Source: Syntrophaceae bacterium (lineage in GTDB: Bacteria > Desulfobacterota > Syntrophia > Syntrophales > UBA2185). From it: a DNA stretch of 22,275 nucleotides. Where the stretch lies: the NCBI GenBank assembly GCA_017885225.1, contig JAFNGM010000258.1:14045-36319 (forward strand), given 5' to 3'. The notes below the pieces were generated by a model that made no database searches, had not been told where the DNA came from, and saw only the letters and a list, made by a program, of their open reading frames with translations. Numbering within the stretch: the stretch's first letter is position 1; each line of letters begins with the position of its first letter. Below are positions 1-18,847 of the stretch, one piece after another. Made by a program: the position numbers and the translations under genes.

Positions 1-1159
1 CGCCCATATATCCCAATGTTGTCTCCCAGAAGGAAAGATCATACTTCGTTTTTTCATACATCTTGGCATTTACGATCGCAATTCCCGCCATCTCCGCGAG
101 AGCAGAAACAAACGCCACTTCTTCACGGCTGTATTGCCTCGCCTCCTGGGAATAGAGCCGCAATATTCCTATCACACGCTTCCTCGCGATTATCGGGGTC
201 GAAAGGATAGAAACGATTCCTTCCTGGGCTTTTTCGGCGACGTATTCGACGCGAGAGTCAGTTCTCGCATCAGGGATCAAGACAGGAGTACCTTCCAGGG
301 TATCACGGATGCTTTTGTCTATATGAAGGGGACCTTTTTTGAGGTAATGATCGCTCAATCCTCTCGATGCAACCAGTTCCAACTCCCGCGATATTTCGTT
401 TATGAGGCGAAGCGAGCATGCTTTCACACCTGTGGCTGCGAGTACTTTTTCAATCACCAGCGCGATCACCTGGGCGGAATCCAGCGAAGACAGAATGGTC
501 CTCGTAATCTCATGAAGCCCTCTAAAATATTCAAGGCTTTTTGCTGGATCAATCGGCTCCAGGGCAAACGACTTCAACCCCTGCTTCCGATTCCGGGGTT
601 CTTCAGTGAGTTCAACGCCGAACTTTTTAAGAAGGGAAGACAGCTTGACCCCTGCATCCTCATAGATCTTCGCATTGGCAATAGCCAGACCGCCGATTTC
701 AGCCAGGGCCGAAACGAACTCAATCTCTTCGTCACTATAATCCCGGGGCTCCCCTGAGTAAAGCCTGAGAATCCCGATGACCCTGCTTTTTGCAATTACA
801 GGAACTGAGAGAATGGTATTGATACCCTCTTCCATTTTTTCTTTCTGATACTGGATTCTCGGATCTTCGAAGGCATCTTTAATGGTTACAACTCTCCCCT
901 TCAGTACTTCCGGTATGCTTTTATCAGAACTTAAAACACCTTTTTGCAAATATTTTCTACTGAGCATATACGAAGCAACCAATTCCAGCTGTCTGGTCTT
1001 TTCATCCAAAAGCCTGAGGCTTCCCGCCTTGGCACCCAGTGTCTTCACCGTTCTCTTCACGAGAAGTGCGAGCATCTCCTTGAGGGATAAAGAAGAAAAA
1101 ATCGTTTGACTGACCTCGAAAAAAGCTCGAAAATACTCAATTGTCTTATGCGTGCCCAT
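1..1159 (-). CDS. Tandem GAF-domain sensor protein (partial, C-terminus beyond window)
   Basis: The frame is open on the minus strand from an ATG at 1157-1159 to the window edge, giving 386 residues and no stop. An AGGAG lies about 11 nt upstream of the ATG. Two GAF-type modules are visible at about residues 8-168 and 210-370. They are clear internal duplicates with a 202-residue offset: both start with S/TxEYF, both contain SLRL, LELVAS, DKSI and VIGILRLYS, and both end with FVSALAE followed by A-I-x-N-AK-x-YE. GAF domains bind small ligands or chromophores and often act as input modules of signalling proteins. No output domain (kinase, cyclase or HTH) is reached before the edge, so the type of output is unknown. 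The gene lies 70 bp downstream of a MORN gene on the same strand and is probably co-transcribed with it. GAF assignment is confident; the ligand is not predictable. Confidence 0.85.
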   Translation of the reverse strand, partial: MGTHKTIEYFRAFFEVSQTIFSSLSLKEMLALLVKRTVKTLGAKAGSLRLLDEKTRQLELVASYMLSRKYLQKGVLSSDKSIPEVLKGRVVTIKDAFEDPRIQYQKEKMEEGINTILSVPVIAKSRVIGILRLYSGEPRDYSDEEIEFVSALAEIGGLAIANAKIYEDAGVKLSSLLKKFGVELTEEPRNRKQGLKSFALEPIDPAKSLEYFRGLHEITRTILSSLDSAQVIALVIEKVLAATGVKACSLRLINEISRELELVASRGLSDHYLKKGPLHIDKSIRDTLEGTPVLIPDARTDSRVEYVAEKAQEGIVSILSTPIIARKRVIGILRLYSQEARQYSREEVAFVSALAEMAGIAIVNAKMYEKTKYDLSFWETTLGYMG

Positions 1160-1229
1160 AATCGTCGTGCTCCTGAAAGGACATCCTGTAAAACCCTGCA
1201 AAGGTGTTGGTTATGTGACGCCTGTCCGC

Positions 1230-1829
1230 CTATCTTGCATCTTTTTTGAAGATGAACTTAAATTTATCACCCTTCCATTCGCCTTCATGTTTTGATCCAT
1301 CGGGGAGAGTTAAAATACCCTTCCCGAAATACTTGTCTTCCTTCCACTCCCCTTCATATTTGGAACCATCCGGGAAAGTCAACATACCCTTTCCATGAAA
1401 CATATTGTTTACCCATTGACCATCGTATTTTTTTCCGTCCGGTAACGTTAAAACACCCCTCCCATTCTTACTTCCATTTTTCCATTGCCCGGAATACTTG
1501 CTTCCGTCAGGCAGGGTTAACGTCCCCATCCCTTCAATATCTCCTTCCTTCCACTCGCCTTCATACCGGCTTCTATCCGGAAGAACCATGAGTCCCCGGC
1601 CGGCAGGAAGCCCACTGTTCCATTTACCTTTATACTCACTTCCATCGGACCATTTGAATGATCCTTCTTCGTGAAACAGTCCTTTTCTGAATTGACCGTT
1701 ATATCTGCTTCGATCAGGATGAGCATACACTCCCAGGCCGTTATAAAGATCATCCTGCCATTCAAACTCTATTTTTTCATTCTCAGATATTTTTTTCACC
1801 AGCTTTTTCAATGTCCGATTACTCCCCAC
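1230..1829 (-). CDS. Small MORN-repeat protein (7 repeats)
   Basis: This 199-residue protein has a short basic leader (KKLVKKISENEK) followed by seven 23-residue MORN units, roughly residues 30-190, of the form GxGxLTLPDGSKYEGEWKxG. MORN repeats form elongated beta-hairpin solenoids used in protein or lipid binding and scaffolding. There is no signal peptide or membrane segment, so it is probably cytoplasmic. The start is a GTG at 1827-1829 without a good Shine-Dalgarno. The upstream MORN-coil gene stops only 12 bp before it, so translational coupling is plausible. The N-terminal leader (L-K-K-L-V-K, then W-x-D-x-x-Y-x-G-x-GV) matches the N-terminus of the upstream 1107-residue protein (L-Q-R-L-V-R, then WKDAPYSGQGV). 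This supports a separate paralogous gene rather than a frameshifted tail. The partner is unknown. Confidence 0.85.
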   Translation of the reverse strand: MGSNRTLKKLVKKISENEKIEFEWQDDLYNGLGVYAHPDRSRYNGQFRKGLFHEEGSFKWSDGSEYKGKWNSGLPAGRGLMVLPDRSRYEGEWKEGDIEGMGTLTLPDGSKYSGQWKNGSKNGRGVLTLPDGKKYDGQWVNNMFHGKGMLTFPDGSKYEGEWKEDKYFGKGILTLPDGSKHEGEWKGDKFKFIFKKDAR

Positions 1830-1841
1830 ACATCAAAGATA

Positions 1842-4800
1842 TCACTTTCCAATAAACTTACCGTTTTTGAACTGACCATCATATCTTTTACCGTCAGGAA
1901 ATGTCATTATCCCCCGGCCATTCGGGAGACCATTTTCCAGTTCACCCTCGTATTTTCTCCCATCTTTCAGAGATAACGTCCCCTGTCCATGATACTTGTT
2001 GTTTTTAAACTCGCCTTCATACCGGTCACCGCTGGGATATGTTAAAATCCCTTTTCCGTTTGACAATCCGTCCTTAAATTCACCATCATACTTAGTACCA
2101 TCTGCCAATACTAAAACTCCCTGCCCTTCATACTTTCCTTTTCTAAACTCCCCTTCATATTTTTTCCCGTCAGGATGGGCATCGCTCCCCTTCCCATGGC
2201 ACAAGTTATTTTTCCATTCACCCGAATATCTACGCCCGCTGGGCATGGTCAGGAATCCATCACCCTCCCGCACATCTTTTTTCCAGTGCCCCACATAGAC
2301 AGAACCGTCCGGCAGGGTCAAAATGCCCTGACCATCCCTTTCACCGACTTTCCACTCTCCCACATACTCTCCGCCATTAGGAAAGGCCATGGTTCCATGC
2401 CCGTCCGGCAGATCATCCTTCAACTCACCTACATAACTCCGCCCGTCAGAATAGTTTGCAGACCATTGCCCATGAGAAATATCCGTCTTTTTTATGGTTG
2501 AGACAGGCCCCTCTTCCAAGGAAAATTTTTCCTTTGCCACCGCTTCCATCTCTACCATAATTCTCACCTCTTCCGCTCTGAATTCCGCATCCGTATCCAA
2601 GGCGAGTCTTGCTTTCACAATCGATTCCATTTCCGCCATGATTCTGGTCTCTTCCGCCTTGAACTTTGCATCCGCTTCCTCTCTCGCCTTTGCCAAAGCC
2701 TCTCTTGCTCTCAATTCAGCCGCCAAGCGGATTGTTTCTTCTGCTTTTGTCCTCGCTTCCATCTCCGCTTTAAGCCTGGCTTCCTCTTCCGCTTTCGCTC
2801 TCCTCTCGGCCTCCTTTCGTGCTTTTGCCTCCTCAGCCAACAGGATCTCAACTTCAGCTCTTACCTTCGCTTCTGTCTCGGCCTTGGTTTTCGCTTCTAT
2901 ATCATCTCTTGCCTTCAGCTCAGCCGCCAGGCGGGCCGCCTCTTCTGCCTTCGCTCTTGCTTCAGCTTCTGCGTTAAGCCGGGCCGCTTCCTCCATTTTA
3001 AGCCTTGCTTCAACTTCCGCCCTGATCTTCGCTTCTTCTTCTTCTATTTCCTTCAACTTTGCCGCCAGGCGGGCCGCTTCTTTCGCCTTCGCCTTCGCTT
3101 CCGCTTCCTCTTCTTCTTTTACTTTCAACTCTGCTCTCAAGCGGGCTAATTCCTCCGTTTTGCCTTTGGCCTCCGCCTCTGCCGCGAGCCTCGCCACTTC
3201 CTCCACTTTTATCCGCGCTTCGGCCTCTTCCTTGGCTCTTCGTTCCGCCTCTTCCCTTACCTTCGCCTCTTCCGCCAAGCGGGCATCTTTAGCCCTGGCT
3301 TTCGTTTCCGCCTCTTCTCGTGCCTTCAGTTCCGCTTTTTCTCTTGCCTTCAGCTCGGCTGCCAAGCGGGCCGCTTCTTCCGCCTTTGCCTTCGCTTCCG
3401 CTTCTGCTTTATGTCTTGCTTCTTCTGTCTTGACTCTTTCTTCCGCCTGTATCCTGGCTTTTGTTTCCGCTTCCTCTTTTGCCTTCAGCTCCGCGGCGTG
3501 GCGGGCCGCCTCTATCGCTTTCGCCTTCGCTTCTGACTCTGCCTCCTCTTTCGCCTTCAACTCAATCATCAAGCGGGCAACCTCTTCCGCTTTGGCTCTC
3601 GCTTCCGCTTCTGCGTTTGCTTTGGCCTTCAGCTCAATCATCAAGCGGGCAACCTCTTCCGCTCTCGCCTTCGCTTCAACTTCTGCTTTCTCCTTGGCTT
3701 TCAATTCATCCATCAGGCGGGCTATCTCTTCCTCTTTCGCTCTCGCTTCCGCCTCTGCCTTCAGCCTGGCTGCCTCTTCCGCCTTAATTCTCGCTTCCGC
3801 CGCCTCTCTGGTCTTCGCCTCCGTTTCCTCTATTGCTTTTAACCTGTCCGCCAGCAGGGCAAATTCCTCCGCTTTCGCCCTTGTTTCTGCTTCGGCTTCC
3901 TCTTTCACCTTCAGTATGGCTGCCAACCGGGAGGCCTCTTCCTCTTTATTTTTTTCCTCAGCGTCTGCTTTTATTCGTGCCTTCATCTCCGCCGCCAAAC
4001 GGGCGGCCTCTTCCGCTTTCGCCCTCGCTTCCGCTTCCGCTTCCGCTTTCGCCTTCAACTCAGTCATCAAGCGGGCAACCTCTTCTGCGTTCGCCTTCGC
4101 TTCAACTTCTGCTTTCTCCTTGGCTTTCAATTCAGCCATCAGGCGAACTATCTCTTCCGCTTTCGCCCTCGCATCCGCCTCTGCCTTCAGCCTGGCTGCC
4201 TCTTCCGCCTTAATTCTCGCTTCCGCCGCCTCTCTGGTCTTCGCTTCCGCTTCCTCTATTGCCTTTAACCTGGCCGCCAACAAGGCCGTTTCTTGCCCTT
4301 TGGCTTTGATTTCCGCTTCGGCTTCCTCTTTCACCTTCAGCACAGCCGACAATCGGGTTGCTTCTTCCTCTTCGTTTTTCGTTTCAGCGGCTGCCTTTAT
4401 TCGCACCTTCAGTTCTGCAGCCAGACGGGCAGCCTCCTCCGCCTTCGCCCTCGCTTCCGCCTCCGCATCCGCTTTCGCCTTCAGCTCCTCCCTTAAGCGG
4501 GCCACTTCTTTTGCGTTCGCCTTCGCTTCAACTTCTGCTTTCTCCTTTGCTTTCAATTCAGCCATCAGGCGGGCTATCTCTTCCGCTTTCGCCCTCGCTT
4601 CCGCCTCTGCTTTCAGCTTGGCTTCCTCCTCCACCATGGCCCGTCTCTCTGCTTCCTGCCTTGCCTTGGCTTCCGCTACTAACCGTGCTTCTATTTCGGC
4701 CTTCGCTTTCGATTCCGCCGCCTCTCGGACTGCCGCTTCTTCCACCCTTTTTCTGGCTTCCGCTTCCTCCCTTCTCCTCACTAAAAGCATGGCCTTTGAC

Positions 4801-5165
4801 TCTTCTGCCAAGGGAGCATCTTCCTCTTTGGCTTTGGCTGTCACTACAGCTGCCACCTTCTTTTTCAGTTGTGAGAGATCCCCTGCGGTACTGCCGCCCT
4901 CCCACGTATCTTCGTATTTTTCCCCTGAAGCACATATATAGCAACCGTTCCCGTGAGGAAGGCCATTGCGCCATTCGCCTTCGTATTTGCTGCCGTCAGG
5001 CCAAACATATACGCCCTTCCCATGGGGATTATCATCCTCCCAATCGCCCTCGTATGAGCTCCCGTCAGGCCAGATAAAAACCCCCTGTCCGCTATATGGA
5101 GCATCTTTCCATGCAACTTTGAATTGTTCTGTGACGGATGTTCCCCTCACCAAGCGCTGCAACAT
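1842..5165 (-). CDS. MORN / long Ala-Glu-Lys coiled coil / MORN protein, 1107 aa
   Basis: Three parts are visible. About three MORN repeats lie at residues 24-92. An Ala/Glu/Lys/Arg-rich region at about 97-880 resembles TolA-type or single alpha helices, with unbroken AEEAARLAAELKAK-like units. Nine MORN repeats fill 897-1104, the first degenerate. There is no signal peptide or transmembrane segment, so it is probably a cytoplasmic elongated scaffold. At 0.15 nm per residue the middle would be about 115 nm if fully helical (inference). The helix is built from 24-residue units arranged in a 142-residue super-repeat. The ATG at 5163-5165 is preceded by AAAAGG, and a strong promoter lies at 5209-5237. 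It heads a probable operon with the small MORN and GAF genes. MORN and coil calls are secure; function is unknown, with cytoskeletal or polar scaffold the most natural guess. Confidence 0.88.
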   Translation of the reverse strand: MLQRLVRGTSVTEQFKVAWKDAPYSGQGVFIWPDGSSYEGDWEDDNPHGKGVYVWPDGSKYEGEWRNGLPHGNGCYICASGEKYEDTWEGGSTAGDLSQLKKKVAAVVTAKAKEEDAPLAEESKAMLLVRRREEAEARKRVEEAAVREAAESKAKAEIEARLVAEAKARQEAERRAMVEEEAKLKAEAEARAKAEEIARLMAELKAKEKAEVEAKANAKEVARLREELKAKADAEAEARAKAEEAARLAAELKVRIKAAAETKNEEEEATRLSAVLKVKEEAEAEIKAKGQETALLAARLKAIEEAEAKTREAAEARIKAEEAARLKAEADARAKAEEIVRLMAELKAKEKAEVEAKANAEEVARLMTELKAKAEAEAEARAKAEEAARLAAEMKARIKADAEEKNKEEEASRLAAILKVKEEAEAETRAKAEEFALLADRLKAIEETEAKTREAAEARIKAEEAARLKAEAEARAKEEEIARLMDELKAKEKAEVEAKARAEEVARLMIELKAKANAEAEARAKAEEVARLMIELKAKEEAESEAKAKAIEAARHAAELKAKEEAETKARIQAEERVKTEEARHKAEAEAKAKAEEAARLAAELKAREKAELKAREEAETKARAKDARLAEEAKVREEAERRAKEEAEARIKVEEVARLAAEAEAKGKTEELARLRAELKVKEEEEAEAKAKAKEAARLAAKLKEIEEEEAKIRAEVEARLKMEEAARLNAEAEARAKAEEAARLAAELKARDDIEAKTKAETEAKVRAEVEILLAEEAKARKEAERRAKAEEEARLKAEMEARTKAEETIRLAAELRAREALAKAREEADAKFKAEETRIMAEMESIVKARLALDTDAEFRAEEVRIMVEMEAVAKEKFSLEEGPVSTIKKTDISHGQWSANYSDGRSYVGELKDDLPDGHGTMAFPNGGEYVGEWKVGERDGQGILTLPDGSVYVGHWKKDVREGDGFLTMPSGRRYSGEWKNNLCHGKGSDAHPDGKKYEGEFRKGKYEGQGVLVLADGTKYDGEFKDGLSNGKGILTYPSGDRYEGEFKNNKYHGQGTLSLKDGRKYEGELENGLPNGRGIMTFPDGKRYDGQFKNGKFIGK
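3530..4636 (-). repeat. 426-bp tandem super-repeat inside the coiled-coil region
   Basis: Near-identical marker segments recur at exactly 426 bp. CTTCAACTTCTGCTTTCTCC on the plus strand begins at 3674, 4100 and 4526, and TTAATTCTCGCTTCCGCC begins at 3784 and 4210. In protein terms one unit is 142 residues, made of four 24-residue segments plus 30 and 16. Copies are roughly 4211-4636, 3785-4210 and a partial third below 3785. A finer 72-bp (24-residue) direct duplication is seen at 3561/3633 (CTCAATCATCAAGCGGGCAA). The high nucleotide similarity points to recent tandem duplication. Outer boundaries are approximate. Confidence 0.85.
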
Positions 5166-5183
5166 TTTTGCCTTTTAACCTCA

Positions 5184-5198
5184 CTTTTCCGTGAAAAG
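5184..5198. other. Short hairpin in the leader of the MORN-coil gene
   Basis: CTTTTC-CGT-GAAAAG is a perfect 6-bp stem with a 3-nt loop. It lies between the predicted promoter and the ribosome binding site of the 1107-residue gene. It could be an operator or an RNA leader structure, or chance in AT-rich DNA. Confidence 0.3.
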
Positions 5199-5208
5199 GT
5201 CAATGCTT

Positions 5209-5237
5209 ACTATAGTAAAAGAGTTTATAAGTGTCAA
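5209..5237 (-). promoter_or_regulatory. Sigma70-type promoter for the MORN-coil/MORN/GAF operon
   Basis: Read on the minus strand: TTGACA (5232-5237), exactly 17 bp, then TATAGT (5209-5214). The -35 is perfect and the -10 is 5/6. The -10 overlaps a 12-nt palindrome TTACTATAGTAA (5207-5218) that could be an operator. The start codon is about 44 nt downstream of the -10. Confidence 0.7.
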
Positions 5238-5316
5238 AAGAAAAACGGCCTCTCCTGCAAAGACATCGATTCACTTGAGGATGCCCTAAGACGTAAATAT
5301 AATGAATAATAGGCCG

Positions 5317-6264
5317 TCACACGTGGTTTCTCAGCATCAGTTCCAGGGGGTGGGGATTTAGATAATACTGGTTTTTAAGATATGGTTCATCAAATTTCCG
5401 GACATGGTGCCGTATCATCACAATAGGTACAATGAGAGGAATTAATCCTCTACGGTAATCTTCTATGACCTCTGCCAGTTCTCTTCGTTCATCTTCGGAA
5501 ACATGCTTCTTGAAGTAGCCTGCCATATGAAACAGCACGTTCGCATTTTTTTTCAACGTCGCGCTGAGACGGAGGGCATCTGTGAGAGCAGTCATATAGT
5601 CTGCGAGATACTTACCCGCTTCATGTCCCTTCGTATCTGCGACCATACGTCCAAGGATGGTTAAGTGCTTTGGGCTATGCGCCATGATCAGCAGCTTGTG
5701 ACGGGTATGGAAATGAATCAATTCTTTGACAGAACCCTTTTCCTGAATAAGGTCACACCATCGCTTATACACAAACACCCGCTCAATGAAATTTTCTCTC
5801 ATGATGGGATCATGAAGCCGTCCGTCATCAATGACCGGGATGAGAGAGAAATGCTTCACAAAGGCCCCTCCGAATATTCCGGCGCCTTTGCGGTCGGGCA
5901 TTCCCGAAGAAGAATAAATTTTTACGCCCCCAATTCCTGAACTGGGGGATTTGCTCTTGAAAATAAAGCCGCACAATTTCTCGTTTTCCAGCTCCTTACA
6001 TTTTCTCATTTTCCATTGCAGCATCCTTTCCGTGTGGTCGATTCCGGAACGGATTGTAACCAGCCGGGGCGATTCCGGTTCTCCGATAAGCCGCATGGCT
6101 TCCCGCGGGATGCCCAGGCCACACTCGACCTCAGGGCATACAGGCACCCACGTAAAGTAACGCCCAAGGGTATCCGTGATATAGCGGTCATGCTGATGTC
6201 CCCCGTCATATCTCACATTGTTACCCAATAGACACGAACTGATTCCTATTCTAATATTTTCCAT
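5317..6264 (-). CDS. DUF523 (TudS-like) - DUF1722 fusion protein
   Basis: The product is 315 residues. Residues 1-150 match DUF523: RIGISSCLLG at the start, VRYDGGH, VCPEVECGLGIPRE at 42-55 and KSKSPSSG at 103-110. The remainder, from about 190 (HFHTRHKLLIMAHSP) to the end, matches DUF1722, the YbgA-like domain. DUF523 includes TudS thiouracil desulfidase, where cysteines hold a [4Fe-4S] cluster. Here C11 and C43 are present, but the SPSCG cysteine is Ser109; C48 is an extra cysteine nearby. The cellular role of the fused form is not established, so I give no gene symbol. The ATG at 6262-6264 is chosen because GAGG lies 5 nt upstream. An upstream in-frame ATG at 6331-6333 lacks a Shine-Dalgarno and would add 23 residues unlike the family. 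Confidence 0.85.
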   Translation of the reverse strand: MENIRIGISSCLLGNNVRYDGGHQHDRYITDTLGRYFTWVPVCPEVECGLGIPREAMRLIGEPESPRLVTIRSGIDHTERMLQWKMRKCKELENEKLCGFIFKSKSPSSGIGGVKIYSSSGMPDRKGAGIFGGAFVKHFSLIPVIDDGRLHDPIMRENFIERVFVYKRWCDLIQEKGSVKELIHFHTRHKLLIMAHSPKHLTILGRMVADTKGHEAGKYLADYMTALTDALRLSATLKKNANVLFHMAGYFKKHVSEDERRELAEVIEDYRRGLIPLIVPIVMIRHHVRKFDEPYLKNQYYLNPHPLELMLRNHV

Positions 6265-7290: not shown

Positions 7291-8001
7291 TCATTGAGAT
7301 CGAGACTGGACATAGCTACCGGGATAGGCATCAAAGATTTTCTTTTTCTTCATATAATCGGAGGCTTCATCTGCGGTCGTAAAATATCCGAGGAATATTC
7401 TATACCAGATACCCCGCCCAGGAAGATGAACTTTTTCCATGTGAACATCGGGTTGGCCTTGTTTGAGGTATTCCACAAATGCGACCGCTTCACTCTCGCT
7501 GGCTTCAGGATAGGCTTTCACTTGAATGGCGAAGTTCCAGTTTATTGTGTTTTGTTGTGTGTGCTTCTCCTTCGGACTCCCAGATAATTTTTTCACAGAA
7601 TCTGCGGGAATGGGAGATTTCAGCCATTCTTTCCCGTCAAAATACATTGTGTGCCCCGTCACACTGTTAACCCTCAGCACATAGGTCTTTCCTCCTGAGT
7701 TGATAGAGTCATAACGGTATATTTTTGGCCACACAAGAATGGCGACGACAACAAACGAAAGAGTGAGTAACACCAACGTCGGGACTACACCGAAAATTCG
7801 GAGTATGCGCTTCTTCTCTGCCTGGAAAGGCGATTCTTCCGATTGCTGTTGAAATCCCATTCCCCCTTCTGTCTTTGTTGGTTCCTTCGATTCTTTTTCC
7901 TGTCCTTTACTCTTTTCAGGGGTATCCAAACTTGCGACTTTTTTATAAAGAGCCTCCAGTTCCTTTTCCAGTTCACGTCCTCTCAGTTCATCTTTTTCCA
8001 T
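7291..8001 (-). CDS. Membrane-anchored SPOR-domain protein
   Basis: The 236-residue product has a charged cytoplasmic N-terminus with a short coil (residues 1-25) and a low-complexity linker. One transmembrane helix follows at about 69-92 (FGVVPTLVLLTLSFVVVAILV). A periplasmic part ends in a SPOR-like domain at about 156-232, with FAIQVKAYPEASEAEA-like start, WYRIFLGYFTTADEA and PGSYVQS. SPOR domains bind glycan strands lacking stem peptides at division sites. Topology is type II, with the C-terminus outside. It is the last gene of the minus-strand cluster MinD-like/J-HTH/SPOR, 50 bp after the J-HTH gene. The domain order resembles FtsN/DedD-type proteins, but sequence similarity to those outside SPOR is not evident. 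The ATG has a modest GGTGAG upstream. Confidence 0.82.
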   Translation of the reverse strand: MEKDELRGRELEKELEALYKKVASLDTPEKSKGQEKESKEPTKTEGGMGFQQQSEESPFQAEKKRILRIFGVVPTLVLLTLSFVVVAILVWPKIYRYDSINSGGKTYVLRVNSVTGHTMYFDGKEWLKSPIPADSVKKLSGSPKEKHTQQNTINWNFAIQVKAYPEASESEAVAFVEYLKQGQPDVHMEKVHLPGRGIWYRIFLGYFTTADEASDYMKKKKIFDAYPGSYVQSRSQ

Positions 8002-8051
8002 AATAGTATCTCACCGGCAATCAATCATTGCAGCGATGCCGTGTATCGTGA

Positions 8052-8711
8052 TTATGAATGCTGCTTCCCTACTCGTTTTATATATCCGTCAATGATGACA
8101 TGCTCATCCACCTGTAAATACCTGGCATAAGATTTCAGAAACCCTTTTAGATAAACCATAGGTGGGAAACTGTCAAAGTCATCTCCTTCAATAGCGCGAA
8201 GCATGGAGATCCTTATATTTGTCTCCTCGGCAATTTTCTCCAGAGATATCCCTAATTCCTTTCTTATTTTACATAGATCAGCCCCTGTTAAGCTATCCTG
8301 AGACATGATTTCCTGAATTAACTTATTGTGCGAGACCACATGCTTCAAATCCTCCGTCCTTCGACGTGGTCCTATCATATCGGCGTGTGTTTTTCTGAGA
8401 TCATATATGGATATCGGATCTCTGGTTTTATGATAATAGGGAGCTTCTTCCTCCACTGCGCCGCTTGCAATGAGTGTGCGGTCATACTCCGCTCTGGATT
8501 CGGGATTAATGAGGGTAAGATATGCATCTTCCAGACCGGCTATGATTTCCTTTCTCTCTTCAGGAGTAAAAAAAGAATAACTTACGATGGATTCATCTTT
8601 GTAGAGCTCGAAGGCATTTTTATACGCCCGCCGGATTTCCATCGGTGATGCACCAGGAGAAATCTCCAGCAACTCGTAATGATTTTGTTTTCGGAATGGA
8701 TTCATAGACAC
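8052..8711 (-). CDS. Degenerate J-domain fused to a RodZ-type HTH
   Basis: The 219-residue soluble protein has a J-like N-terminus (about 11-77: HYELLEISPGASPMEIRRAY, later LEDAYLTLINPESRAEYD) that lacks the HPD tripeptide. The loop instead reads LYKDESIVSYSF, so DnaK stimulation is unlikely. Residues about 143-212 form a RodZ/HTH_25-type helix-turn-helix: LCKIRKELGISLEKIAEET, ISMLRAIEGDDFDSFP, VYLKGFLKSYARYLQVDE. In RodZ this fold contacts MreB. Here there is no membrane segment, so the domain may contact the neighbouring MinD-like ATPase or DNA. The start is GTG at 8709-8711 with AGAGG about 9 nt upstream; an ATG at 8703-8705 is the alternative. It sits 69 bp after the MinD-like gene. Domain calls are good; function is inferred from context only. 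Confidence 0.82.
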   Translation of the reverse strand: MSMNPFRKQNHYELLEISPGASPMEIRRAYKNAFELYKDESIVSYSFFTPEERKEIIAGLEDAYLTLINPESRAEYDRTLIASGAVEEEAPYYHKTRDPISIYDLRKTHADMIGPRRRTEDLKHVVSHNKLIQEIMSQDSLTGADLCKIRKELGISLEKIAEETNIRISMLRAIEGDDFDSFPPMVYLKGFLKSYARYLQVDEHVIIDGYIKRVGKQHS

Positions 8712-8780
8712 TCACTGTGCCCTCTGCGGCACTGTAATGCATTCTTCGCCCATTGCAAGGAAAAGATCTTGCGGGGAGCT

Positions 8781-9707
8781 TCATTCTGCAACACCGTGAA
8801 TACACAACTGTGTTTCCTTCAATGATACCATATTCTCATAACACCTTCTTATATCAGAAGCAGTCTGGGTATAGGGATAAATATGGAGAAAAGGCATTTT
8901 TTTACAGATTGAACTATGAACATGGTCATCAAAGCTTATGTTTCCGATAAAGTGGATTTTCAGCCCAAGATGTCTTTCAATAATTTTGCAAATGAGCGCA
9001 CCAATGTTCGGATCGTCCTGTTTCCTCAACTGGTTGAGAACTAACTTGAATTCAAAGCCCCGCAAGGACTGTTCGACAACTCTGCCTCTCTCTGGATCTA
9101 TTTCTTTGATAATATAAAGAAGGATCTCCGGGTTTTGTTCTGTGGCCCGGCTGTCTCTCGTTTTTGCCTCTTCAGCCAGAACTCGGAAGTTATGAACTTT
9201 AAGCTCTTGACGAATCCTCCGGATATACACAGAACGGATCAGGCGGTATATGTTTTCTATCGAAGTGGGCTCCGCCGTTGTCACTAATATGCCTGAATTT
9301 GAAATCATGAAAAAATCGATGGTATTAAAAGATGTTCCCGCACCGAGATCCAAGAGGATATACTCATACGGGAGCTTTGTGATGCTTCTCAGGAGCCTCA
9401 TCTTCTGTTCATGGACAATATTGGTAATATCAAGGCTATTCAGCGCGCTGCTGATGAAATAAAGGTTGGGGATTGCGGTGGTTACAACGGTTTCTTCAAG
9501 AGTGCCGACTTTTTTATTGATGAAATCTGAAATGCTTGTCTCAGGATGGGGAATACCGAGGACAGTATGCAGGTTCGCCGTGCCGAAGTCAATATCAACG
9601 AGAAGCGTCCTGTACCCATTTTTTGCGAGCAGAATCCCGAGATTCCCGGTCAGGAAACTCTTGCCGGTTCCTCCCTTTCCACCTCCAATGGGCCATATAT
9701 GCGCCAT
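8781..9707 (-). CDS. MinD/ParA-family (FlhG-like) P-loop ATPase
   Basis: The 308-residue protein opens with a deviant Walker A, GGGKGGTGKS (residues 8-17, signature Lys11 and Lys16). The switch DIDFGTANLHTVLG and Walker B ILLDLGAGTSFNTID follow. These are hallmarks of MinD/ParA/FlhG ATPases, which dimerise with ATP and position division, flagellar or chemosensory structures. The C-terminus (ending LCIHGVAE) shows no clear MinD-type amphipathic membrane helix, and there is no FlhG-type N-terminal extension or flagellar neighbour. It therefore looks like a separate orphan class. It leads a three-gene minus-strand cluster with the J-HTH and SPOR genes under a strong promoter at 9770-9798. The ATG at 9705-9707 gives the canonical N-terminus; AGGT immediately upstream is a weak Shine-Dalgarno. 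Confidence 0.88.
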   Translation of the reverse strand: MAHIWPIGGGKGGTGKSFLTGNLGILLAKNGYRTLLVDIDFGTANLHTVLGIPHPETSISDFINKKVGTLEETVVTTAIPNLYFISSALNSLDITNIVHEQKMRLLRSITKLPYEYILLDLGAGTSFNTIDFFMISNSGILVTTAEPTSIENIYRLIRSVYIRRIRQELKVHNFRVLAEEAKTRDSRATEQNPEILLYIIKEIDPERGRVVEQSLRGFEFKLVLNQLRKQDDPNIGALICKIIERHLGLKIHFIGNISFDDHVHSSICKKMPFLHIYPYTQTASDIRRCYENMVSLKETQLCIHGVAE

Positions 9708-9769
9708 GGCACCTATCCCAGCTCGATCCTAAGTTACGGTTAAAATAACAGAAACTCGCTTTTGAACGG

Positions 9770-9798
9770 AGTATATAGAAAGCCATTCTGCATGTCAA
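9770..9798 (-). promoter_or_regulatory. Sigma70-type promoter for the MinD-like cluster
   Basis: Minus strand: TTGACA (9793-9798), 17 bp, TATACT (9770-9775). The -35 is perfect and the -10 is 5/6. It lies in the 216-bp gap between lon and the MinD-like gene, about 63 nt before the start codon. This argues that the cluster is expressed independently of lon. Confidence 0.72.
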
Positions 9799-9923
9799 TG
9801 AGGAATTAATCAAGGCAGTTAAGATCTCTGTCCCTCCTGCGATGAAACAATCATCGGGAGTATGCGTAACATTTCTTCTGCGAGCGGTTTGGCGCATACC
9901 CATAAAGAACGGCTGCTAAAGCA

Positions 9924-12272
9924 TCACTTCTCCAAGGCAATCTTTAAGGCCTCAATCATTTCATCCACAAAGTGAAACTGAATATCCTTCTGAACTTTAT
10001 GGGGGATGTCGACCAAATCCTTTTTATTCCATTTTGGGAGGAGTATTGTGGTAATACCGGCCCGGTGGGCCGCCAGAACCTTTTCCTTGATACCCCCGAC
10101 AGGAAGCACAAGCCCCCGCAGGGTAATTTCCCCGGTCATGGCAAGATTCTCCTTGACCTTCTTTCCCGTAAAAAGCGACACCAGCGCCGTCAGCATGGTA
10201 ACGCCTGCCGACGGCCCATCCTTGGGGATAGCCCCGGCGGGTATATGGACGTGAATATCGTGCTCTTCAAAGAAATCTTTTGAAACACCCAGGTCACCTG
10301 AATTGGCGCGGATGAAACTCAAGGCGGCCATCGCCGATTCCTTCATGACATCGCCCAGCTGCCCCGTGAGCGTCAGCCCCTTCTTCCCACTCATGGCTGT
10401 TGCTTCGACAAAGAGAATATCACCGCCCGCCGGCGTCCACGCGAGGCCTGTGGCGACACCCGGCTTGGATGTCCTCGCGCTGACCTCAGAGATTATGCGG
10501 ACAGGCCCCAGATACTTGTGGACATCTTTCACCGTGATGGACGCGTCTTTTGCTTTCCCTTCGGCCACCATGGTTGCAACACCCCGGCATATCGTACCTA
10601 TTTCACGTTCAAGATTTCTCAGTCCGGCCTCCCGCGTATATCCTGAAATAATGCGATTTATGGCGCCTTTCGTAAAACTTACCTGCTCCGGTGCGAGCCC
10701 ATTGGCCTCTCTCTGCCGAGGGATGAGGTAACGTTCGGCAATGTTAACCTTGTCGTCCTGCGTGTAGCCAAGAAGTTCAATCACTTCCATCCTGTCCCGG
10801 AGCGCAGGGGGGATCGTGTCCAGGATGTTCGCAGTGGTAATGAACATGACATGGGAGAGATCGAACGGAACATCGAGATAATGGTCCATAAAGGAATAAT
10901 TCTGCTCCGGATCAAGGACCTCAAGGAGCGCAGAGGAAGGATCTCCGCGGAAATCGCTGCCGACCTTGTCTATTTCGTCCAGGACAAACACGGGATTATT
11001 GGATTCCGCCCTCTTGATACCCTGGATAATGCGGCCCGGAAGCGCCCCTACATAGGTGCGGCGATGTCCTCGTATCTCCGCCTCGTCCCGTACTCCCCCC
11101 AGGGCAATGCGCACAAACTTACGGCCGAGGGCGTGTGCAATGGAGAGGGCAAGTGAGGTCTTGCCTGTACCCGGAGGTCCCGCAAAGCACAGGATTGGCC
11201 CTTTCGAATCAGGCTTCAGCTTCCGGACGGCAAGATACTCAACAATACGCTTCTTCGCTTTATCCAGGCCGTAATGCTCATCATCCAAAATATCCCGTGC
11301 CTTCCTGATATCCATATTGTCTTCCGTGCTCTCATGCCAGGGAAGGGCCGTCATCCAGTCCAGGTATGTCAATGACACAGTATATTCGGCGGATGAATGG
11401 TGCATGCGGGACAGGCGCTCCAGCTCGCGCAGGGCTTCCTTTTTCGCCTCTTCCGGAAGATTTTTCTTCTCAATCTTCGCACGGTATTCCTCTATCTCAA
11501 CCTTAGGTTCATCGGCTTCACCCAGTTCCTGCTTGATTGCCTTGAGCTGCTGCCGGAGGTAGTATTCCCTCTGACTTTTGTCGATATCCTCCTTTACCTG
11601 AGACTGTATCTTATTGCCCAGCTCGAGAATTTCCAGCTGATGACTTATGAGCCGTGTAACTTCTTTCAGGCGCTCTTTTACATCGAGCAATTCCAGAATC
11701 TTCTGTTTTTCTTCCGCCGCCGCGTTCATGATAGACGCGATGACATCAGCCAGAACGCTCGGAGAGTTGATGGACTTCGCCATGGCGCCGAACTCCTGGG
11801 GCAGCACCGGAGACAGTTTGACCATCTTCTCAAAAAGACCGGTCAGGTTCGCCATGAGCGCCTCAACCTCAATATCCTTCTCTACTGCATCTTCAATGAC
11901 TTCGACCTTTGCCCGGGGATATGACTTCCCCTCGACAAATTCACTCAATCTGAATCTGCTCACACCCTGTACAAGAAGACTCGCCCCTGTATCGCCCGTC
12001 TTCGCCATTCTGAGAATTACCGAAGCCGTTCCCATGTCATAAAAATCCTCACGTGTGTTCGTGACCTCCATCGGCGATTTTCTGGACATGACAAGGCCGA
12101 CAATACGATCTCCCGCCATGGCTTCATCGACAAGAGTTACAGACTGTTCACCGAACACTTCAATGGGAAACACCATATTCGGGAACACGACAACGTTAAA
12201 TAACGGCATAACAGGTAAGATGTCGGGTATGGTCAGGACCTTTAACTCCGCAGGTGATTTCTGATCTGCCAT
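9924..12272 (-). CDS. lon: ATP-dependent protease Lon
   Basis: The product is 782 residues, full length for LonA. It has an N-terminal LON substrate-binding domain (about 15-205, MPLFNVVVFPNMVFPIEV), a coiled linker, and an AAA+ domain with Walker A GPPGTGKTS (about 365-373) and Walker B VFVLDEIDKVG. The C-terminal serine protease domain has catalytic Ser in PKDGPSAGVTM (about Ser688) and Lys in GGIKEKVLAAHRAG (about Lys731). It degrades damaged and regulatory proteins in the cytoplasm. The start is the ATG at 12270-12272, because a perfect GGAGG sits 5 nt upstream; the in-frame GTG 12 nt earlier would overlap that site. It follows hsp20 by 63 bp on the same strand, suggesting a heat-shock operon. 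No sigma32 or CIRCE site was recognised. Confidence 0.97.
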   Translation of the reverse strand: MADQKSPAELKVLTIPDILPVMPLFNVVVFPNMVFPIEVFGEQSVTLVDEAMAGDRIVGLVMSRKSPMEVTNTREDFYDMGTASVILRMAKTGDTGASLLVQGVSRFRLSEFVEGKSYPRAKVEVIEDAVEKDIEVEALMANLTGLFEKMVKLSPVLPQEFGAMAKSINSPSVLADVIASIMNAAAEEKQKILELLDVKERLKEVTRLISHQLEILELGNKIQSQVKEDIDKSQREYYLRQQLKAIKQELGEADEPKVEIEEYRAKIEKKNLPEEAKKEALRELERLSRMHHSSAEYTVSLTYLDWMTALPWHESTEDNMDIRKARDILDDEHYGLDKAKKRIVEYLAVRKLKPDSKGPILCFAGPPGTGKTSLALSIAHALGRKFVRIALGGVRDEAEIRGHRRTYVGALPGRIIQGIKRAESNNPVFVLDEIDKVGSDFRGDPSSALLEVLDPEQNYSFMDHYLDVPFDLSHVMFITTANILDTIPPALRDRMEVIELLGYTQDDKVNIAERYLIPRQREANGLAPEQVSFTKGAINRIISGYTREAGLRNLEREIGTICRGVATMVAEGKAKDASITVKDVHKYLGPVRIISEVSARTSKPGVATGLAWTPAGGDILFVEATAMSGKKGLTLTGQLGDVMKESAMAALSFIRANSGDLGVSKDFFEEHDIHVHIPAGAIPKDGPSAGVTMLTALVSLFTGKKVKENLAMTGEITLRGLVLPVGGIKEKVLAAHRAGITTILLPKWNKKDLVDIPHKVQKDIQFHFVDEMIEALKIALEK

Positions 12273-14102: not shown

Positions 14103-15374
14103 ATGTTTCCTTCTTTGGGCAAGTATTTCGAAAAATTTTTCCGAAAAAAATCTACACGAAAAATCAGCCTCGACAAGGAGCTTATGCTGGACGGACACGG
14201 ATCGATGACCTATACAGGTGGTATGTGCTACGAAGGGGAATGGAAAGATGGCAAGTGGGAAGGACAAGGCACCCTAAGTTATCCCGGCGGTCTCCGTTAT
14301 ACAGGTGAATGGAAAAACAACAAAATGGAGGGCGAAGGAATCATGACCTTCCCCGATGGTGCTCAGTATTCCGGCCAGTTTAAGAATGGCAATTTCAGCG
14401 GACAGGGGTCTATGATCTTTTCCAGTGGCAAAACCTACACAGGTGAGTGGAAGGATGGCGAACCTGGTGGCCACGGAACCATGACCTACCCTGATTACAC
14501 CAGATATATAGGTCATTTTAAGAATGGTGATTTTCACGGCGAAGGAACCATGACCTTTCATGACGGCAGGACCTATGTAGGCCAGTTTAAAAACAACCTG
14601 TTTAACGGCCAGGGAACCATGTCCGGCAACGATGGCACACATTACTTTGGTACCTGGAAGGATAACAAAAAAGAAGGGCGAGGAGTCCTGACCCGCCAGG
14701 ATGGCAGTTCTTACAGCGGGCAGTTTAACAATGATGTATTCAATGGAGAGGGAACACTGACTGAACCGAACGGGAAAAAATATGTGGGACAGTTCAAAGA
14801 CGGCAGGAAGAACGGGCGCGGGATGCTCACGATGCCAGATGGTACCGAGTACATCTGTGAATGGCAGGATGATTTAATAAACGGAAAGGGCATCATAAAA
14901 TTTTCCGACGGCAGAATATACGAAGGGCAATTCAAAGATGATACAATGAACGGGCAGGGGATGCTGACTTTTCCTGATAAAAGAAAATACACAGGTCAAT
15001 TTAAGGACGGTATTTTGGAAGGTTATGGATCAGCGAAATACCCTGACGGGAAAAACTATGTCGGTCAGTGGAAAAACGGTTTGTTCGACGGCCAGGGAAC
15101 CATGACCTACCCTGATGGTGGGGAATACGTGGGGCAGTTTGAGAATGGTATGCCTAATGGACAAGGGACTATGACCCGCCCTGACGGACAATACGTAGGG
15201 CATTTTAAAAACGGGAAGAAGCACGGACAGGGTGCGGTAACATTTGCAAACGGCTCTAAGTACGCAGGTCAGTTTAAGCATGACAATTATCATGGTCAGG
15301 GGACGCTCACGCTTCCCACCGGTGAAAAATACGTAGGTGAATGGAAGGACGGCAAATTTACAGAGATTAAATAA
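14103..15374 (+). CDS. MORN-repeat protein with 17 tandem repeats
   Basis: The 423-residue protein has a short basic N-terminus (about 28 residues, KYFEKFFRKK) and then 17 consecutive 23-residue MORN units to the end. One unit, the fifteenth, is a residue short (TRPDGQYVGHF). Units follow G-x-GTMTYPDG-x-x-Y-x-G-x-FKNG. There is no signal peptide, membrane segment or enzymatic domain, so it is a pure MORN solenoid, probably cytoplasmic. The amphipathic basic N-terminus could contact membranes (inference). Bacterial MORN proteins lack a general assigned role; eukaryotic ones act as membrane-associated scaffolds. It is monocistronic from a promoter at 13964-13992 and converges with the RodZ-like gene with a 1-bp gap between stops. 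It is the third MORN gene in the window and matches the other two in repeat consensus. Confidence 0.9.
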   Translation: MFPSLGKYFEKFFRKKSTRKISLDKELMLDGHGSMTYTGGMCYEGEWKDGKWEGQGTLSYPGGLRYTGEWKNNKMEGEGIMTFPDGAQYSGQFKNGNFSGQGSMIFSSGKTYTGEWKDGEPGGHGTMTYPDYTRYIGHFKNGDFHGEGTMTFHDGRTYVGQFKNNLFNGQGTMSGNDGTHYFGTWKDNKKEGRGVLTRQDGSSYSGQFNNDVFNGEGTLTEPNGKKYVGQFKDGRKNGRGMLTMPDGTEYICEWQDDLINGKGIIKFSDGRIYEGQFKDDTMNGQGMLTFPDKRKYTGQFKDGILEGYGSAKYPDGKNYVGQWKNGLFDGQGTMTYPDGGEYVGQFENGMPNGQGTMTRPDGQYVGHFKNGKKHGQGAVTFANGSKYAGQFKHDNYHGQGTLTLPTGEKYVGEWKDGKFTEIK

Positions 15375-15375
15375 T

Positions 15376-16176
15376 TTATTCCGTGGCCTTACGGTAACCC
15401 GCGGTGATCGCATCCGCCTCTGAATTAAATACGATCCGATTATGTGACCTTATCCTATGATAATACTTCATGCCCGGCTTATGATACAGTTTACTTTTCC
15501 GGTTTCCTATCACCTTTGCCTTTCCCGCTCCTTGTCGAGCGCGGGAAGGCTGAGAACCTAATTCTTTTATGCCTGCGTGGCGTTCTAATGGAACGGGTAC
15601 AATGCCGGGAGATGACCCCTGTGAAGAAGGCTGCGGCGAACTTCCATTTTTCTCTGAAGTTACGGAAGGCGTCGGGTCATTTCTTTGCAGAGAAACTTCC
15701 TGCCTGGTTTCCTTGGAAGGCATTATCTCCTGAATTTCGAGCATCCCTGTTTTTTTTAATGACAGTACGTGGACATACAGATAAAGAAGGACAAAAGCCC
15801 AAATTACAATGCCTGCCCAAAAAATGCCTTCCATAATTTGTTTTCTGGAAAAACGACCGGCCCTTCTCTTTGACTCTGGAGGCTTGTCACCCTCAAAGAA
15901 GATAGATAAATGAGGGACACTATATTCTTTTTGATGATGACGCGCACATTGTGTCTTATAACGATTCAAAATATCCTTTTTATCCAAATTCACATATGCG
16001 GCATACTTTTTTAAATATTGTGAAGTAACTTCCGGACGTGGGATCAAATGAAACTTGTCTTCTTCCAAAGCGTTGATCATAGGAACACTTATGCCTGTGG
16101 AACGGGAAATCTCCTGTACTGAAATAAGGTGTGCTTCCCTTTTTCTTCTTAAATACTGCCCGAGCGTCTCTTTCAT
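15376..16176 (-). CDS. RodZ-like HTH membrane protein with sunset/Ada-like C-terminus
   Basis: The product is 266 residues. An HTH_25/RodZ-type domain lies at about 1-73 (LGQYLRRKREAHLISVQEIS, INALEEDKFHLIPRP, QYLKKYAAYVNLD). A basic stretch, one transmembrane helix at about 116-138 (GIFWAGIVIWAFVLLYLYV) and a Ser/Pro-rich linker follow. The last 45 residues (222-266: VIGNRKSKLYHKPGMKYYHR, then NRIVFNSEADAITAGYRKA) match the sunset/Ada metal-binding-like motif. That motif usually carries cysteines; here the expected position is Met in PGM, so metal binding is doubtful. Topology places this motif outside the cytoplasm. RodZ links MreB to the wall, but the periplasmic domain here differs from RodZ, so I give no symbol. 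The promoter is at 16290-16318. Confidence 0.82.
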   Translation of the reverse strand: MKETLGQYLRRKREAHLISVQEISRSTGISVPMINALEEDKFHLIPRPEVTSQYLKKYAAYVNLDKKDILNRYKTQCARHHQKEYSVPHLSIFFEGDKPPESKRRAGRFSRKQIMEGIFWAGIVIWAFVLLYLYVHVLSLKKTGMLEIQEIMPSKETRQEVSLQRNDPTPSVTSEKNGSSPQPSSQGSSPGIVPVPLERHAGIKELGSQPSRARQGAGKAKVIGNRKSKLYHKPGMKYYHRIRSHNRIVFNSEADAITAGYRKATE

Positions 16177-17330: not shown

Positions 17331-18077
17331 ATGTACAACAGCAATTACATTTTGGTTCTACTCATGATCGTCTCTTCTCTTTTTCTTTTTTCGTCATGCG
17401 GTCAGTGCCACTCTCAGACCCTACTGCACGAATCCCAGCCGTCTCGAGAAGGCAACTTTCCCGCTTATTTAAAGAAACGCATTGGTCACTCCTCTCAGGT
17501 CATTCTCGTCCGGAACATGCAGCCTCACACTGTTTCCGTTCAGGTTATTGCTTTGGAACGGAAAAACGACCGCTGGCGGAGTCCTTTTCTTCCCATGGAA
17601 GGTGTGATCGGGAGGAAGGGATTCGCGCCGCCGGGCGAAAAAAGGGAAGGAGACGGCAGGACGCCCTCAGGGATATTTCCCCTTGGTGCAGTATTTGGCT
17701 ATGAGCCTTCTTTTCCGACGATGATGCCCTATCGGCAGGTTACTGTCGATGACCTATGGGTAGATGACGCACACGCCGCTGACTATAACCGATTAGTGAA
17801 AAGGGGATCAACAAGGGCCTCATCCTATGAGGTGATGAGAAGGGACGACGATTTATACAAATACGGGATCATCGTGGAGTACAATGCGGATCCTGTCATC
17901 AAGGGTTACGGAAGCGCCATTTTTTTTCATCTCTGGAGGGGAAAGGAAGCGCCTACAGAAGGCTGTGTTGCCCTGTCGGAAGAAAACCTCACGCGGATAT
18001 TGCGCTGGTTGAATCCGGAGGCAAGGCCTCTCGCGGTCCTGGGAACAAACGCAACGATCGATGATATGACACAATGA
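17331..18077 (+). CDS. YkuD-family L,D-transpeptidase, probable lipoprotein
   Basis: The 248-residue product starts with a hydrophobic lipoprotein-type signal (LVLLMIVSSLFLFSSC, Cys23). A periplasmic domain follows with the features of the YkuD/ErfK-like group: DGRTPSGIFPLG, YGIIVEYN, and the active site FFHLWRGKEAPTEGCVALSE with His200 and Cys212. Classical YkuD enzymes read SHGC; here it is TEGC, typical of a divergent branch. L,D-transpeptidases form 3-3 peptidoglycan cross-links or attach proteins to the wall. The stop overlaps the start of the VanX-like gene (ATGA, 4 bp), so the two are translationally coupled. The ATG at 17331 has no good Shine-Dalgarno, and a dispersed repeat occupies the upstream region. 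Activity on peptidoglycan is inferred. Confidence 0.86.
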   Translation: MYNSNYILVLLMIVSSLFLFSSCGQCHSQTLLHESQPSREGNFPAYLKKRIGHSSQVILVRNMQPHTVSVQVIALERKNDRWRSPFLPMEGVIGRKGFAPPGEKREGDGRTPSGIFPLGAVFGYEPSFPTMMPYRQVTVDDLWVDDAHAADYNRLVKRGSTRASSYEVMRRDDDLYKYGIIVEYNADPVIKGYGSAIFFHLWRGKEAPTEGCVALSEENLTRILRWLNPEARPLAVLGTNATIDDMTQ

Positions 18078-18847
18078 AACACGCGCCCCGGATCATGCTG
18101 TTATGTTCCCTGATGCTCTTCACCAGCCAGTCGCTGCCGGTGATGTATTGCCACGCTGAGAGCAGGATGCCCGATTCCTTTGAGGATGTGAAAGCGCGAA
18201 TACCTTCCATACTTCTTGATATGCGGTATTACGGTCCGCACAATTTCATCGGCGAGCGGATCGAAGGCTACAACGCACCCAAATGTCTTCTCACGAAGCA
18301 GGCAGCGGCGGCATTAGCCAGGGTCCAGAAAGAACTTGAAGCACAATCCTTATCGCTCAAGGTTTACGACTGCTACCGGCCGCAGCGTGCCGTCGATCAT
18401 TTTGTAAGATGGGCGCAAGACATGAACGACACAAAAACCAAAAAGGAGTTCTATCCCACCATAAAAAAACGCGACCTTCTCCGGAAAGCTTATATCGGCG
18501 CCAGATCCGGCCACAGCAGGGGCAGCAGCGTGGACCTCACTATAGTACCTCTCCCTGCGTCCGAGGAGCCCACGTATCAACCGGGAGATGCACTCTACGA
18601 ATGCTATCTCCCCGCGGGGAAACGCTTCCAGGACAATAGTCTCGACATGGGGACAGGGTTTGACTGTTTTCACGAGCGTTCCCACACGACGAACAGGAAA
18701 CCAGGGGAAAAGCACATGCGCAATCGCCTGCTGCTGAAAAATATTATGGAAAAACATGGCTTTAAAGGCTATGCGAGGGAATGGTGGCATTACACCCTGC
18801 GGCGCGAACCATTCCCGAAAACCTATTTCGATTTCGCCGTCGAATAA
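18074..18847 (+). CDS. D-alanyl-D-alanine dipeptidase, VanX/DdpX family
   Basis: The 257-residue product has a signal peptide ending around residue 29 (CHAES). VanX-family residues are all present: Arg102 in DCYRPQRAV, zinc ligands His147 and Asp154 in SGHSRGSSVDLT, and Glu236 and His239 in EWWHYT, corresponding to the catalytic base and third zinc ligand. VanX enzymes hydrolyse free D-Ala-D-Ala. Periplasmic members such as DdpX salvage it from wall turnover, which fits the signal peptide and the coupling to an L,D-transpeptidase. There is no vanH, vanA or vanRS nearby, so glycopeptide resistance is not indicated. The start overlaps the upstream stop by 4 bp. Family call is strong; recycling role is inferred from location and neighbour. 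Confidence 0.92.
   Translation: MKHAPRIMLLCSLMLFTSQSLPVMYCHAESRMPDSFEDVKARIPSILLDMRYYGPHNFIGERIEGYNAPKCLLTKQAAAALARVQKELEAQSLSLKVYDCYRPQRAVDHFVRWAQDMNDTKTKKEFYPTIKKRDLLRKAYIGARSGHSRGSSVDLTIVPLPASEEPTYQPGDALYECYLPAGKRFQDNSLDMGTGFDCFHERSHTTNRKPGEKHMRNRLLLKNIMEKHGFKGYAREWWHYTLRREPFPKTYFDFAVE

Follow-up and report, generated by a model that had tools for sequence, protein, structure and literature searches.

On its minus strand, the window (the whole 22,275-nucleotide stretch of DNA analysed here) carries a large gene, 1842..5165, that encodes in a single frame three MORN repeats, an Ala/Glu/Lys/Arg helix of ~770 residues and a further nine MORN repeats. We propose, with a probability of roughly one half, that its product is a tether, probably cytoplasmic, in which two MORN docking modules would be held apart on a long charged helix, with the C-terminal block pairing or meeting a partner. 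A tether is favoured, and a ruler disfavoured, because the relatives of this gene keep the two ends while changing the spacer in both length and type.

Frame, domain layout and spacer composition

The frame runs from an ATG at 5165 to a stop at 1842-1844, encoding 1107 aa with zero internal stops, exactly at the coordinates given by an earlier note on this DNA, which had left the minus strand unstated. MORN was the sole Pfam family detected on the protein (E 9.5e-67, 8 stretches), and the 23-residue repeats matching PF02493, together with the modelled beta-hairpin sheet fold, place it among the MORN repeat proteins. In the structure model, the N-terminal MORN block (4881..5093, minus strand, residues ~25-95, as defined by model and family alignment) has its strands at residues 26-89, making three hairpins with pLDDT block means of 75-92, and the C-terminal MORN block (1845..2468, minus strand, residues 900-1107) has its strands at residues 900-1106, making nine. 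The spacer between them (2532..4877, minus strand, residues ~97-878) was modelled mostly as helix, with low to middling confidence. Thus, the order of MORN, long helix and MORN read earlier from the letters was recovered by Pfam, by structure model and by spacer composition, and the claimed lack of a membrane anchor and signal peptide was upheld by a hydropathy scan, in which neither was seen in the large protein (maximal 19-residue mean 0.42; first 60 residues -0.01).

Just upstream on the same strand, at 5237-5209, lies a promoter-like site, TTGACA-17-TATAGT, identified by consensus match only (11/12 positions). Consensus scanning placed further minus-strand sites at 5334, 2066 and 1907, and given the latter two a second transcription start may exist inside the large gene; no minus-strand terminator-like site was found within 1000-5500. 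An 815-aa plus-strand ORF opposite the coil (2494-4941) was taken as a shadow of the coil codons, because it is the minus frame that has the domains, the conservation and the promoter-like site.

Residues 101-870 contain 29% Ala, 24% Glu, 13% Lys and 10% Arg (26% Glu/Asp and 23% Lys/Arg over the spacer), with one Pro and two Gly. The spacer repeats itself at 8, 24 and 142 residues, its strongest period being exactly two residues, and at the DNA level has repeats of 72, 144 and 426 bp. Because charge sits on alternate residues, odd and even positions were shuffled separately to give the null for charge pairs. Against this null, 228 opposite-charge pairs at i,i+4 stood 14.5 SD above expectation, the 27 like-charge pairs at i,i+4 were 11.7 SD below, and like-charge pairs at i+8 were 9.3 SD above. 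With opposite charges at i,i+4, few like charges and little Pro/Gly, the charge pattern of the spacer is that of ER/K single alpha-helices. In controls, the middle domain of E. coli TolA gave 45 opposite versus 5 like pairs at i,i+4, while two coiled-coil arms of MukB gave 17/17 and 17/22, so that the spacer resembles TolA in its opposite-to-like ratio and differs from the MukB coiled coil. Single-helix-like windows covered 765 consecutive residues here; the longest run among 181 other MORN proteins compared was 102.

In this genome the spacer is most likely a single alpha-helix, which would probably be monomeric. Typical natural single alpha-helices are given as 40 to ~200 residues long in PMC5347031, and PMC5378345 names ~200 residues as the longest among myosins. 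Taken as a single helix, the spacer would come to almost four times those ~200 residues, the upper end usually cited; the literature searched yielded no statement on the longest bacterial single alpha-helix.

Distribution of the layout and the adjoining small MORN gene

Twenty-two ORFs, from 21 genomes, have both MORN blocks in a single reading frame, and all these genomes belong to a sample of 149 from the same order, probably Syntrophales; at least 21 of the 149 thus have the layout, several further ORFs being truncated where a contig stops within the coil. At E 1e-30, 43 of the 149 gave at least one match. The genome under study has two family ORFs, the large gene and a 704-aa paralogue (L016), while in another (G027) the N-block and C-block lie at two contig ends. 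In a phylum-wide sample searched at E 1e-40, 2 of 148 genomes matched, namely the own genome and one with a 362-aa ORF. A contig scan yielded 12 loci; the layout was missing from L010 and L012-L015. Querying a protein database gave 577 proteins at E 1e-5, and among the best 120 of these only P0010, P0016 and P0044 showed, by motif spacing, two MORN repeats, 686-806 residues and eight MORN repeats; P0010 and P0016 may equal the L052 protein and the L053 open frame, with which their lengths agree. A database search with the N-block, for which 62 of 170 candidates were listed, missed even these three proteins, so absence from it means little. No family was excluded for being absent from the fold-comparison list. 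Further matching MORN genes (L062/L081, L075, L076 and L080) were left out of the family, having signal-peptide-like starts as judged by eye and no spacer. In the literature searched, i.e. titles and displayed abstracts, no description of a MORN-helix-MORN family was found, in agreement within that scope with the earlier note, which could place the architecture in no described bacterial family, though other papers could exist.

Several further MORN genes were met on the way. In the own genome, six ORFs spread over three contigs match MORN, and the window itself encodes an all-MORN protein of 423 aa (14103-15374, plus strand, 13 Pfam MORN stretches) 9 kb from the large/small gene pair. In a sister species (G001, contig C129), the paralogue of the large gene at 7534-10153 (L064) is broken up over several frames, through either decay or misassembly. 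Precomputed Pfam labels showed MORN repeats and TonB C-terminal domains together in database proteins P0059 and P0089.

The earlier note had missed a conserved small MORN gene next door. This all-MORN gene (1230..1829, minus strand; ORF with Pfam MORN) encodes 199 aa from a GTG, and comparison with relatives suggests the TTG at 1811 as its start, which leaves ~30 bp, with GGGGAG between, after the large stop. In 21 of 22 family loci the large gene is followed directly by an all-MORN ORF of 120-222 aa; in the remaining one (L063) the contig stops short within the large gene. A relative in G042, whose genome is one contig of 3,179,300 bases, lacks the N-block and the long spacer, and no second MORN ORF was found there, MORN matches at E 1e-4 being confined to that relative; this single genome hints that N-block, spacer and small partner go together. 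Whether the small gene equals the large gene minus its spacer was judged by repeat comparison, where repeat 2 was nearest N1 (0.46), repeat 3 was near N2 (0.44) yet nearer C9 (0.47), and the others were ambiguous; that derivation is not claimed.

The next gene on the same strand (2..1201, partial, running past the window start) encodes a two-GAF protein (Pfam GAF_2 and GAF), which follows the small gene in six loci of family f1. HypD and HypF come after it in five of the six (identity checked on the own copy only), and a hydrogenase link was set aside as local synteny, these genes being confined to five loci, all f1. In family f19 a dehydrogenase-like neighbour is common to two or three loci, and a few clusters recur at a distance. 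No gene adjoining the pair and common to different families was seen, and no function was drawn from the neighbourhood. Elsewhere in the window, the minus strand at 8052-8711 and 8781-9707 encodes a DnaJ domain joined to a RodZ-like helix-turn-helix (HTH_25), beside a MinD/ParA-like ATPase, and a second HTH_25 protein is encoded at 15376-16176. On the plus strand, the genes of a YkuD L,D-transpeptidase and a D-Ala-D-Ala dipeptidase (Peptidase_M15) overlap by a few bases (17331-18847), and a long fibronectin-type repeat protein with a signal-like start runs off the window (20583-22274).

Spacer length and type among relatives

Twenty spacers ranged from 388 to 1329 residues (median 721.5), leaving out L008, which has a run of N in its spacer, and L063; the spacer of L058, whose frame breaks in the C-block, was counted, and the broken paralogue L064 was not. 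Even within one genus the spacers of G004, G007 and G008 measured 844, 798 and 554 residues, and between the latter two genomes the N-blocks are 98% and the C-blocks 96% identical. A collapse of repeats during short-read assembly is a possible cause of such differences and is not favoured, the longest exact repeats in these three congeners being 41, 64 and 48 bp. The longest member (L068, 5693-10528, minus strand) has 1588 aa and a spacer of 1329 residues, with both the charge pattern and a heptad signal.

This variation bears on the suggestion of a molecular ruler that fixes a distance. Arithmetic gives a 770-residue helix a length of 115 nm, which speaks for a ruler, but length was not conserved between close relatives with near-identical ends (554 versus 798), spacer type varies as well, and a single helix of ~770 residues would have a broad distribution of spans. 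We rejected the ruler, which now seems scarcely credible.

Alternatively, the spacer might be a functionless low-complexity expansion, close to the disordered artefact of repeat expansion that the earlier note had named as an outcome that would overturn its view. The 72, 144 and 426 bp repeats, and repeat units that differ between lineages, would fit such an expansion. Nei-Gojobori counts on MAFFT alignments, which are rough for spacers where the alignment runs across repeats, put dN/dS against the congener L004 at 0.36 in the N-block, 0.14 in the spacer, 0.10 in the C-block and 0.09 in the small gene, and five other spacer pairs gave 0.11, 0.11, 0.21, 0.26 and 0.41, i.e. 0.11-0.26 in helical pairs and 0.41 in a Pro/Gly-rich pair. 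Across the six pairs, these values (0.11-0.41) place the spacer under purifying selection, and the 0.14 of this gene shows its spacer to be maintained. Frames stay intact up to 1588 aa and the charge pattern is far from random; the spacer dN/dS of 0.14 and charge pairs at 14.5 SD contradict a repeat artefact, and a functionless expansion is very improbable.

The charge pattern itself is widespread, with an i,i+4 z of at least 9.8 in 16 of 21 spacers measured. The remaining values were 5.2 (L053), 4.5 (L063, on 70 residues), 3.2 (L052), -1.9 (L055) and -1.6 (L056); the last two spacers have 23-25% Pro+Gly, and the database protein P0044 has 17%. A tree of the C-blocks puts the two Pro/Gly-rich groups in separate halves, with node labels of 85 and 100 next to the midpoint root; L052 and L053 share one clade there, and the exact position of L055/L056 is weakly supported. 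Inspection of this tree indicates at least three changes of spacer type, where the single-helix label is the default for every row neither coiled-coil nor disordered, including L008, L063 and the heptad-raised L049, L054 and L068.

Could the spacer instead be a two-stranded coiled coil, the protein being a dimeric rod or building cytoskeletal filaments through its MORN ends? Heptad-range power in this spacer was weakly raised (2.48 versus shuffled 1.88 ± 0.24 and 1.80 ± 0.31 in two runs), similarly in SD terms to one MukB arm (2.79, shuffled 1.74 ± 0.40; the other arm 4.15), and VxxLxxxL-like patches recur in its 24-residue unit. Among relatives the power was strong in L052 and L053 (3.76 and 3.53) and clearly raised alongside the charge pattern in L049, L054 and L068 (3.18, 3.02 and 3.02), and P0010, an L052-type protein, bears a tropomyosin Pfam label. 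Also speaking against a single helix, the single-helix run is interrupted in L005, L050 and L051, the longest being 171-210 residues. Nevertheless, no 3.5 period peak appeared across the whole spacer of this gene, its like-charge pairs at i,i+4 are few in contrast to MukB, L011 had a power below shuffled (0.79 versus 1.31) with 4% LIVMF, and the L055/L056 spacers are non-helical. Coiled-coil pairing is thus less likely for this spacer and more open in some relatives, and as an account of the protein it is unlikely.

Reach, docking and likeness to known systems

With the persistence length of ~15 nm reported for single alpha-helices (PMC5347031), a continuous helix of 770 residues would measure 115 nm along its contour, with a calculated rms span of ~55 nm. 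The ~115 nm proposed earlier therefore holds as a contour, if the helix is continuous, and overstates the average span; the word 'rod' is too strong for this protein, all the more as other lineages have heptad-coil-like or Pro/Gly-rich spacers. What outlasts these corrections is 'tether', the ends being kept while the spacer changes. As a tether, the very long charged helix would act as a semi-flexible spacer between MORN heads, and its reach would matter more than its structure. Single alpha-helices are reported as constant-force springs (PMC4183817), a behaviour that would suit a tether.

The two MORN beta-sheet solenoids would be docking modules for protein rather than lipid, and a cytoplasmic location is suggested by the lack of signal or anchor. 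The C-terminal block probably pairs with itself, in the manner of the last MORN1 repeats, or with a partner, for which the small all-MORN protein is the likeliest candidate. The last three repeats of the C-terminal block (C7-C9) are its most conserved (0.65-0.70), which we count indirectly in favour of self-pairing because MORN1 is described as pairing through the same region (PMC7725318).

More broadly, and held with somewhat less than even confidence, this bacterial lineage may make single alpha-helices far longer than described as spacers for MORN heads, repeatedly swapping them for a coiled coil or a disordered chain while heads and partner are kept, such that selection would act on reach and connection and not on structure. 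The L068 spacer would extend ~190 nm if helical; its heptad signal lowers the odds of this broader reading. If monomeric, the spacer studied here is several times the ~200 residues usually cited as the upper end for natural single alpha-helices. With spacers from 388 to 1329 residues that are helical, heptad-coil-like or Pro/Gly-rich while the ends stay the same, the family is a natural series in which to ask what a spacer must do. It is also a bacterial system of two conserved genes that could serve to test whether MORN docks to protein or to membrane, a matter disputed for this very common repeat.

Lipid binding is often assumed for MORN repeats, and junctophilin, with MORN at one end only, was first proposed to tether membranes through lipid-binding MORN. 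On this pattern the two blocks might bind lipid and join membranes or membrane patches, to which PE co-purified with TbMORN1 (PMC7725318) and the basic, partly hydrophobic ends of the f1 small protein (LKKLVKKI, FKFIFKK) would lend weight. According to the same source TbMORN1 bound neither membranes nor vesicles, and the large protein has no membrane anchor, and the basic ends are not conserved outside f1 and f19; a membrane tether is thus improbable, and docking to protein is preferred. Junctophilins (7rxe, 9uo9) have a transmembrane segment (PMC8934682); no such C-terminal anchor was seen in the large protein, whose hydropathy maximum is 0.42.

Among other MORN systems, MORN1 of Plasmodium, Toxoplasma and Trypanosoma (6t4d, 6t69, 6t4r) is eukaryotic, all-MORN and without a long helix; its tail-to-tail dimer (PMC7725318) has only a putative equivalent here. 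In MORN4/Myo3a (6jle) and retinophilin/NINAC the MORN protein binds a myosin rather than another MORN protein. MORN-heliorhodopsins carry some three bacterial MORN repeats, for which a role as cytoplasmic interaction modules has been proposed (PMC8612252); they are from Firmicutes, with MORN fused to rhodopsin, and unlike the large protein lack a long helix. For the spacer, ER/K single alpha-helices share the i,i+4 charge pattern and serve as semi-flexible linkers (PMC5378345, PMC5347031), typically of 40 to ~200 residues against the ~770 predicted here. The TolA middle domain is a long charged bacterial helix with the same i,i+4 pattern, and related TolA and TonB linkers are likewise reported to vary between helix and Pro-rich chain (PMC12204202). 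TolA has an N-terminal membrane anchor, unlike the large protein, which scored 34.5 bits with the TolA model (cut-off 59.45) in a match confined to the coil and so falls outside that family.
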